A stretch of DNA of 64,000 nucleotides. Origin: Labia minor. Lineage: Eukaryota; Arthropoda; Insecta; Dermaptera; Spongiphoridae. The notes under the pieces were generated by a model. It was given only the letters and a program-made list of their open reading frames with translations. It ran no database searches and was not told the DNA's origin. Shown here one piece after another: positions 23,401-26,400 of this stretch; position 1 is the first letter of the stretch; the number at the start of each line of letters is the position of its first letter. The translations under genes were made by a program, and so were the position numbers. The stretch covers positions 58,138,528 through 58,202,527 of the forward strand of contig OY720345.1 of the NCBI GenBank assembly GCA_963082975.1, in the 5' to 3' direction.

Positions 23401-26400
23401 AATGTATATATATAAATATATACAATAATATATAATATATATATATAAATGTATATTTTATAAATATACTAGCTGCTCAGAGCGCCGAATTTTAATAATT
23501 TTAATCAAAATAGATACCAAAAGATAATGCCAATAGAGATTTTTTCAAAAATTATTCCAATCAAATAAATAAAAAATTTAATATATAATAAAATTTGCAA
23601 ATTTATAAGTCAACTTCTAAGTCAGGTAAAAATTGTTTAAAAGCGAATTTACATTTTAGTACAATAGTATATGATAGTGTCAAAAAATATTTTAATTTTA
23701 ATTCTATAATAATATTAATATTTAATAATTATTTATGATTAATATGCTTTAATAATAATAGTACTTTCGTATTATTATTGTACTTATTATTCGATTTATT
23801 AAACAAAAGTAATGCAATGTGGAATCGTCAAAATTTATTTTCTAAATTATCATAATTATTTATTATTAATTGCGGATAGACCGTGAGGATCACGCAGAGC
23901 TTTAAAGAAAAATGATTAATCTTCAGTGTGGTAGACTGTCGTGCTAACCACTAAACCACTGAAGAGTCTATTATTTGTTTATTTTTTAATTTATGATAAT
24001 AAATACCCTTTTAGATGTTTCTATTTTGATAAGTTTTAAATATAAAATTAAAAAAATAATAAATACATTTTTCATCATTTAATGGACAAAAGGACAATAT
24101 TTGATTGGGTTTCGATTGTTCCAGCTTCAAAGATGGTCTCGCTTTCTGCGCGCTCATCCATCGTCATCGGCCCGACTTGATCGACTACAACAAACTCTCG
24201 AAGGATAATCCTCTGGAGAATTTGAACACGGCCTTTGATGTAGCTGAAAAGTATCTTGATATTCCACGCATGTTGGACCCTGACGGTAAGCTCAACACCA
24301 TTAAGGACATAACAAATCAAAAATTCATCTTTCATCTAAAACTTTCCTTTTGAATAAAATATTAAAACACAACAAAAAATTAAAACAAATTCAAATTTAA
24401 TTAAGTTACCCATTTTTATTAGATATAGAATCATAGGGATAATGAACAAGTTTTTATTTTAAAATTAAAATTATTTTTATTTATTTATTTTTTTTAAATA
24501 TATAAAAATATTTATCTTTACTTTTTAATTAATAAAAAAAAAAATTAATTTTAACCCCTCATTCTAAATAGAAAACTGATTTTAAATATATAATTTTAAT
24601 TGATTTAAATTATCGAAATTATTATTTTTTGAGTTTATTAAATAACTTTGGTTTACTATTCATTGTCAAAGTTAAAAATATCTTTTTTTTTAATAAATCC
24701 AAATCCAAATCTAGGTAAATTTCCATCCTTTTGGATTCATTTTAGTATTTCATTCCCTTTCTCTAAGTTAAAAAAAAATAAACTGCCATTTGTTACAAAG
24801 CGAGAGTAAATGAGTGGACAAATCGGCTGGGCTCTTTCAGACTTGATCAACACGCCCAAGCCGGATGAACGGGCCATCATGACCTACGTGTCGTGCTACT
24901 ACCATGCGTTCCAGGGCGCCCAACAGGTGACCCCCCCCCCCTCGAATGCATTATTCTTCGCGAATTGTTTCATACCATTTTGTCCAATACTAATTATTAT
25001 ATCTACTTCAATAAAGACCTGATAATTATTTATTAACATTTAATTAATAACGAACAGGCTGAAAATGGGCAATAATATTAATATATTATAAAATAATAAT
25101 AATAGTAGTCGTTTATTTTAATATAATTTAATTAATTTAAATCTATTTGAAAAATTGTGCTTTAATCACATATGAATAATAGTTAGTTTGTTTTTTTTAA
25201 TTTTATTTCAAATAATTAATTTCCTATTTAAATTCTTCAAATTAGATTATATATAAATAATAAATATATATATAATTTAAATTTAAATCTCAGTCTTTCA
25301 AAACATTATTTATAATTTAGTTAATAAAAAAAAGATAAACTCATTTTTGTGGATTTGGATAATACTTTACCCCAGTGGGTTCCTTTTGCAATTCCAAATA
25401 AACTTTTCTTATGAAATTTTTCCCGGCATCTTATAGTTTTCGAGTTAAAAATTATTAAAATTTGCTTATAAATCCATTGATATTCTATTTATCTAGCATG
25501 TTTTATCCGTTTGACTACCAGAGGACGCACCCATTTTCGGTTTTTATAAGTTCGATTTGGATTTATGAAAATTAAAAAATTAATTAAATAATTTTCCTAT
25601 ATCCAAAACGAACTTATAAAAACCGAAAATTGGTGCGTTTGGATTTATGAAAATTAAAAAATTAATTAAATAATTTTCCTATATCCAAAACGAATCTAGC
25701 TAAATAGAATATCAATGAATTTATAAGCAAATTTTAATAATTTTTAACTCGAAAACTATAAGATGCCGGGAAAAATTTCATAAGAAAAGTTTATTTGGAA
25801 TTGCAAAAGGAACCCCCTGGGGTAAAGTTTTATTATCCAAATCCACGAAAATGAGTTTACCTGAATAATTACAAAAAAAAATTTGTACAATCATTTACAT
25901 TTAATTAAAGTTTCATTTCAAGGAAGTGGAAGATATAGCTTACAATACCCTCCTTTAATTAAATGAGGGTAAATGTTAATTAAGCCCTGAACAGCCACCT
26001 TAATTTAGTGTCCCCATAATTTATTTGCGTGTGCTTTTGATAGAATGTTTGTTGAAAATAATTGGAATGCTTATGAAATTGATTAATTAACTGTTTGAGT
26101 TGTATTCATAATTCGAATGTCTTTCTTAACATGATTCTGGATAATCTACTGCCTGAATGTTTTCGTGTTTTAACGGCTTGCGCGTGTTGCATGTTTGTGG
26201 CCAGATCTGGTGACCACGGCAATGCCCGACGAGCGAGCTGTCATGACGTATGTCTCCTCGTACTATCACTGCTTCTCTGGAGCCCAGAAGGTATTCAACC
26301 ACCAACACTCCCATCCCTTTCCTATCAAAACTACAAAACACTTTTCTCATCATTTAGGATCTCTTTACCAAATTTTATTTTGCTCATTTGTAACTAAACT

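Follow-up and report, generated by a model that had tools for sequence, protein, structure and literature searches.

The alpha-actinin gene (Actn) in the window, here meaning the whole 64-kb stretch of DNA that was analyzed, carries a large palindrome in the intron between two alternative exons. Does such an element take part in the choice between the exons, or is it merely carried along in the intron? The gene lies on the plus strand, with recognizable coding exons from approximately 14.4 kb to 31.5 kb, in DNA with a G+C content of 25.8%. A preliminary description of this locus had reported two homologous, phase-matched Actn exons of 86 nt, of which only one can be used if the frame is to be kept, and both exons stand as described. 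Exon A (24841-24926, plus strand) encodes the end of the actin-binding domain and is bordered by ...CTCTTTCAG/ACTTGATC upstream and CAACAG/GTGACC downstream. Exon B (26205-26290, plus strand) is bordered by ...GTGGCCAG/ATCTGG and GCCCAGAAG/GTATTC, and an intron of 1278 nt separates it from A. The pair is preceded by a constitutive exon that ends ...GACG in phase 1 (24125-24285, plus strand) and followed by another whose peptide ends ...LASD (27375-27467, plus strand). Equal in length, each entered in phase 1 and left in phase 0, and encoding peptides in which 19 of 28 residues are identical by a by-eye count, A and B have the features of mutually exclusive homologous exons. The frame is preserved by either exon singly, and joining the two (172 nt) shifts it. 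Spliced to its neighbors, exon A has alpha-actinin-2 as its top PDB match (7ank, 2.5e-60), and exon B, treated likewise, has actinin 1sjj (1.2e-59), which we take to be chicken smooth-muscle actinin. These matches suggest that exon A is muscle-like and exon B nearer to the other actinin type. A run of C at 24931-24941, directly past the 5' splice site of exon A (GTGACCCCCC...), is odd for so AT-rich an intron.

A choice between exons is known at this place in the Drosophila gene. The fly Actn isoforms that differ at exons 5/6 are RA (non-muscle), RB (adult), and RC (larval), and primers in exons 4 and 8 give a product of 335 bp from RA or RB and of 402 bp from RC, according to the account in PMC3315501. 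Mapped onto the window, the two fly primers match at 19 of 23 and 17 of 22 bases, the forward primer falling in the upstream constitutive exon, the counterpart of Drosophila exon 4. With either exon included, the span between the mapped primers is 86+86+93+70 = 335 nt, the fly RA/RB size. By this comparison of sequences A and B are the counterparts of Drosophila Actn exons 5/6, the exon choice being one that is already known, and the reading frame together with the Drosophila precedent leads to the deduction that A and B would be spliced in a mutually exclusive manner. Tandem exon duplication in the actinin family is listed for vertebrates, arthropods, and nematodes in PMC9741552, where many such recurrences between phyla are viewed as convergent evolution, so that a great age of the A/B pair does not follow. 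In the A-B intron the sole open AG...GT stretch of 45-110 nt (25728-25826) was considered as a fly-like exon 5a and rejected; it lies within the right arm of the palindrome.

The palindrome (copy 1 of the family discussed below) occupies 25334-25872, beginning 407 nt past the A 5' splice site and stopping 332 nt short of the exon B acceptor. Its length is 528 bp when measured to 25861 and 539 bp when measured to 25872, where other genomic copies cease matching; the left end is without approximately 12 terminal nt present in other copies. Two main arms of 138 nt, the left at 25359-25496 (plus) and the right at 25696-25833 (minus), are 97% complementary, and outer arms at 25333-25364 and 25831-25862 pair at 94%. 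Aligned as a whole (25334-25496 against 25696-25861), the arms agree at 158 positions and differ by 5 mismatches and one gap of 3 nt. An inner hairpin (25525-25638; 88%) overlaps an internal direct repeat of 75 nt (25556-25630 and 25638-25712). The fold-back of about 520 bp with an inner stem that had been described between the exons is thus present, and the very long pre-mRNA hairpin expected of it agrees with folding: the predicted RNA fold of 25320-25870 is -308.4 kcal/mol, compared with a mean of -89.8 (sd 5.8) for 100 shuffles (z -37.8). A survey of the window for inverted pairs (aligned length at least 40, gap below 600, span below 2500) returned 14 self-complementary matches, among which the A-B fold-back has the top bit score, and no inverted pair passed the same filter in any of 10 first-order Markov controls. 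No open reading frame of at least 80 aa extends into 25334-25872.

The origin of this structure becomes clear from the remainder of the genome (604,477,936 bases in 71 contigs). At least 87 matches to copy 1 were obtained from the 40 first-look candidates that were scored, out of 2926; those of full length end near query position 873, which is 25872. A 21-nt end motif, GGTAATTATTCARGTAAACKC, occurs exactly 249 times in forward and 260 times in reverse orientation (509 in all), and its reversed control does not occur in either orientation. Twenty-six other copies were compared (L002-L005 and L007-L028, both window loci excluded). All of them are self-complementary over 500 or more columns; they are 77.4-83.1% identical to copy 1, and the family ends in them read GGTAATTATTCA... 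Perfect target-site duplications of 8 bp stand at the exact ends of the terminal inverted repeat (TIR) in 12 of these copies, random 8-mers being identical at a rate of 0.00018, and in the remaining 14 the duplication is imperfect or absent. For copy 1 itself the flanks at 25334/25861 match at 4 of 8 positions; a candidate duplication, AAAAAAAA, flanks the element on either side when the right end is set at 25872 or 25873, in runs of A where its weight is limited by a perfect match at 6.6% of 1000 random sites put through an identical search. Terminal inverted repeats, a target-site duplication in the family, dispersal in many copies, and the lack of a transposase of its own are the marks of a non-autonomous TIR transposon, and the A-B palindrome is a copy of a MITE-type fold-back transposon of this kind. 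The end motifs, the palindromic relatives, and their duplications bear out the transposon origin that had been proposed for it. With hundreds of end-motif copies in the genome, the position of this insertion calls for no special explanation. A 24-mer common to both copies in the window has no match in viral_contigs or in genome_contigs, as expected for an animal repeat, and the window has no Rfam match at gathering scores. Five partial copies of approximately 300 nt (L029-L033) are nearer to copy 1, matching its left half at 91-92%, than the full-length copies are (77-83%), which may place copy 1 in a younger subfamily that includes half-length members.

Long reads can carry fold-back artefacts, and an assembly or sequencing artefact would offer a trivial account of a palindrome. 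Here the chance of this is practically negligible: the arms are not identical (5 substitutions, one gap of 3 nt), the center is a different, nested hairpin, and every one of the 26 relatives is likewise palindromic, 12 of them within perfect target-site duplications. The same relatives bear on the strength of the hairpin. Arm-to-arm identity is 0.969 in copy 1 and averages 0.914 in the 26 others, with a maximum of 0.975, the right-arm alignment being shorter for many of them. Two of the 26 have more similar arms than copy 1, and for this reason the copy 1 hairpin is not exceptional; strong hairpins characterize the family as a whole and not this locus. High arm identity had been considered as possible evidence that pairing is under selection and was rejected on the same count. 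On average the arms of the 26 copies are 90-92% like those of copy 1.

The same gene holds a second, diverged family member. Copy 2 (19697-20904) lies in the large upstream Actn intron that is bounded by exons near 17.2 kb and 24.1 kb, with the TIR GGTAATTGTTTA at both ends and a perfect 8-bp target-site duplication, AAATTTTC, at 19689-19696 and 20905-20912. Its right half is interrupted by a hAT element of 682 bp on the minus strand (20106-20787; TIR TAGGGCTTACAATACC; perfect 8-bp duplication ACTAGAAG), and this nesting gives the relative order of the two insertions. A fragment of a hAT dimerization domain on the minus strand (PF05699, E 2.1e-06) falls in this piece, which has its own TIR and target-site duplication, so the fragment belongs to the nested element and not to copy 2. 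Further fold-back or inverted elements are found at 3863-4299, 10553-11548, and 21272-21774, the last with ends that are presumably mariner-like. Elsewhere in the window, part of a gene for a Cut8-type nuclear proteasome tether is found at 44627-44878 (PF08559, E 2.8e-06), and a single open reading frame of 1486 aa on the minus strand (34550-39010) is, we assume, a topoisomerase II-like gene.

A role for the hairpin in the choice between A and B had been put forward in several forms: it might sequester splice sites, loop them out, or bring them together. Sequestering was addressed by partition-function folding of 24541-26590 with the element in place, with the element excised, or with one of five scrambled inserts, a thermodynamic treatment that ignores co-transcriptional folding and proteins. 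With the element the mean unpaired probability is 0.37 at the A 3' splice site, 0.60 at the A 5' site, 0.30 at the B 3' site, and 0.51 at the B 5' site; with the element excised the values are 0.37, 0.60, 0.30, and 0.52, i.e., within 0.01. The scrambled inserts give 0.38-0.39, 0.60, 0.30-0.33, and 0.42-0.49 in the same order, the largest shift being a slight lowering, by at most 0.09, at the B 5' site. In these models the hairpin is a closed domain that folds independently of the splice sites, and sequestering finds no support. Looping-out fares no better, as the hairpin encloses no exon and looping one out is impossible. A better candidate for looping-out than the A-B palindrome is another pair of elements in the window. 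The segments 13335-13815 and 17461-17941 are inverted copies, 96% identical, with ends CAGAGGTTCTTAA, that flank the Actn coding exons near 14436 and 17084; we take them to be hAT-like, and an open reading frame in the first (13359-13727) has no Pfam match. The left arm, 13335-13815, is likely intronic, and pairing between the two could favor circular RNA or skipping of the enclosed exons.

The fold-back could also be part of a conserved docking/selector structure of the type found in Dscam or 14-3-3zeta. The element is intronic and lies within a mutually exclusive pair, and structures of this type have been proposed to be common in such clusters (PMC6071210). Pairing was screened by duplex energy among the intron before A (U), the A-B intron to the left (L) and right (R) of the element (E), and the intron after B (D), with eight shuffled controls per pair. 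The best duplexes between introns are -19.8 kcal/mol for L-R, -20.7 for U-R, -14.4 for U-L, -18.2 for R-D, and -15.3 for L-D, with the strongest controls at -20.2 to -24.1. U-D (-18.2), E-U (-19.6), E-L (-19.9), and E-D (-20.0 kcal/mol) are all within controls. None of the six intron-to-intron pairs exceeds its shuffled controls, and a single excess is seen among the four element-to-intron pairs: E-R, at -24.1 kcal/mol, is stronger than all eight of its controls (best -22.2) and joins a tile from 25814, at the right end of the element, to adjoining flank from 25913, approximately 60 nt downstream. One such excess is expected by chance when ten pairs are each compared with eight controls, and the E-R duplex is further discounted because the far more stable main stem would have to break for it to form and because it is absent from the regional minimum-energy fold. 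Docking/selector pairing was rejected, with six of six intron pairs and three of four element-intron pairs within or weaker than controls; in this energy screen of one species, competing sites beside each exon were not found, nine of the ten region pairs being without excess. With arms that pair mutually and not with sites on the exon side, and with a repeat dispersed in the genome, membership in a docking/selector system is highly improbable. Unchanged accessibility, the lack of an enclosed exon, and intron duplexes within controls together leave a regulatory role in the A/B choice unsupported, and most probably the hairpin is a passenger, not a switch.

A weaker influence can be conceived in which the hairpin aids splicing quantitatively, shortening the path from A to B, pausing the polymerase, or recruiting proteins that bind double-stranded RNA (dsRNA), and in this way biases the choice. 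The fold is very stable, it removes approximately 530 nt from the 1278-nt intron path, and it sits between competing exons; MIR insertions between the mutually exclusive exons of OGDH can add or remove distant branch-point competitors (PMC7969005). Set against this, the modelled accessibility of the splice sites is unchanged, the choice exists in flies already, the genome has hundreds of copies of the element, and its best relatives are at least as palindromic, all of which makes a quantitative role unlikely. A version in which the fold-back is the tuner of an older exon switch, the hairpin being formed co-transcriptionally, edited or bound, and thereby shortening and delaying the intron so that carriers and non-carriers differ in actinin isoform ratio, is rather less probable still. 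If the A/B ratio were in truth affected, the element would provide a natural, removable test of whether a local hairpin can shift the choice between mutually exclusive exons when docking/selector pairing is absent, and the genome would offer hundreds of similar copies for comparison.

Consequences of another kind would follow from the double-stranded nature of the transcript. Introns are normally excised and their RNA broken down within the nucleus, and this speaks against a reading in which siRNAs or nuclear dsRNA from the transcribed hairpin silence the transposon family or adjust the output of Actn. Such a role would suit the long, near-perfect stem and a family of hundreds of copies with common ends and closely similar arms. 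In Caenorhabditis elegans, intronic inverted repeats are found in 40% of the transcripts under-represented without TDP-1, against approximately 25% of expressed genes (PMC4282642). On balance the siRNA or dsRNA reading is very unlikely. Editing by ADAR of the approximately 160 bp of nearly perfect double-stranded RNA, while still in the nucleus, is plausible, as the preliminary description had proposed, a near-perfect hairpin in an intron being a typical dsRNA substrate. Edited regions in worms nearly all have inverted repeats or transposons (PMC4282642); across animals editing favors young repeats, and features of the Drosophila genomes would lower the number of repeat-derived sites in those flies (PMC9989829).

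Several signals that might set the exon choice lie outside the element. Loss of Muscleblind in Drosophila shifts Actn isoforms, mbl transgenes rescue the defect, and YGCY clusters adjoin fly exons 5 and 6 (as given in PMC3315501). In the window the 200 nt before exon B contain three YGCY motifs, a number reached by 5.6% of windows, and the 200 nt after exon A contain none, so that motif support for Muscleblind is weak here. A candidate UGCAUG motif of the Rbfox type (26188-26193, plus strand), picked after the fact, lies 11 nt before exon B and is one of nine plus-strand copies in the 64 kb. Rbfox1 binds UGCAUG with an effect that depends on the side of the exon, and actinin is not mentioned in the main text of this fly Rbfox1 paper (PMC8742874). 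Ahead of exon B there is also an AG-free stretch of 103 nt (26100-26202) with a GU-rich tract and the UGCAUG; AG gaps of at least 100 nt number 59 among the 2488 in the window, and the stretch is at most suggestive that exon B has a distant branch point. The UGCAUG, the YGCY motifs, and the AG-free stretch are leads for the exon choice, not results.

The best explanation, and a highly probable one, is that the palindrome is one of many MITE-type copies and rides as a passenger in the intron between mutually exclusive exons that are shared with flies. The hairpin in the pre-mRNA would snap shut on itself and leave with the intron, with the exon choice nearly unchanged. The choice would be enforced by the frame, since transcripts in which A and B are joined would be frameshifted and subject to mRNA decay, and it would be set by RNA-binding proteins such as Muscleblind, as shown in Drosophila, and perhaps by Rbfox at UGCAUG. 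If the element is indeed a passenger, the intron of a constrained exon pair tolerates an insertion of 530 nt, perhaps because the insertion folds by itself. Among the papers listed in the literature searches, judged by title and the opening of the abstract, none concerned a fold-back in Actn.

Several known systems resemble this locus in part. With Dscam, 14-3-3zeta, and Mhc, where docking/selector pairing operates, it shares structured intronic RNA close to a mutually exclusive exon pair, in a gene of arthropod type (as outlined in PMC6071210); it differs from them in having one self-paired hairpin, no competing partners having been found beside each exon. Drosophila Actn exons 5/6, as described in PMC3315501, share with the A/B pair the position in the gene, the 335-nt primer span, and the picking of one exon from a homologous pair, and differ in the extra 5a form behind the 402-bp product, which has no clear counterpart in the A-B intron. 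Vertebrate ACTN genes also have tandem homologous alternative exons (PMC4465641, PMC9741552), exon A resembling alpha-actinin-2 and exon B 1sjj, and the events reported for ACTN1/ACTN4 in PMC9741552 alter residues of the EF hand, not the exon of the actin-binding domain. With ADAR-edited intronic inverted repeats the locus shares a transposon hairpin, placed in an intron, from which long dsRNA could form (PMC4282642, PMC9989829). The family as a whole shares with MITEs and fold-back TIR transposons its terminal inverted repeats, high copy number, 8-bp duplications, and the fact that no coding capacity was found. The usual hAT TIR is of the CAG type; the 8-bp duplication of the family fits a hAT element, and its TIR, which starts GGTAATT, does not look like one. 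The family differs from MITEs in a palindrome that spans nearly the whole element.
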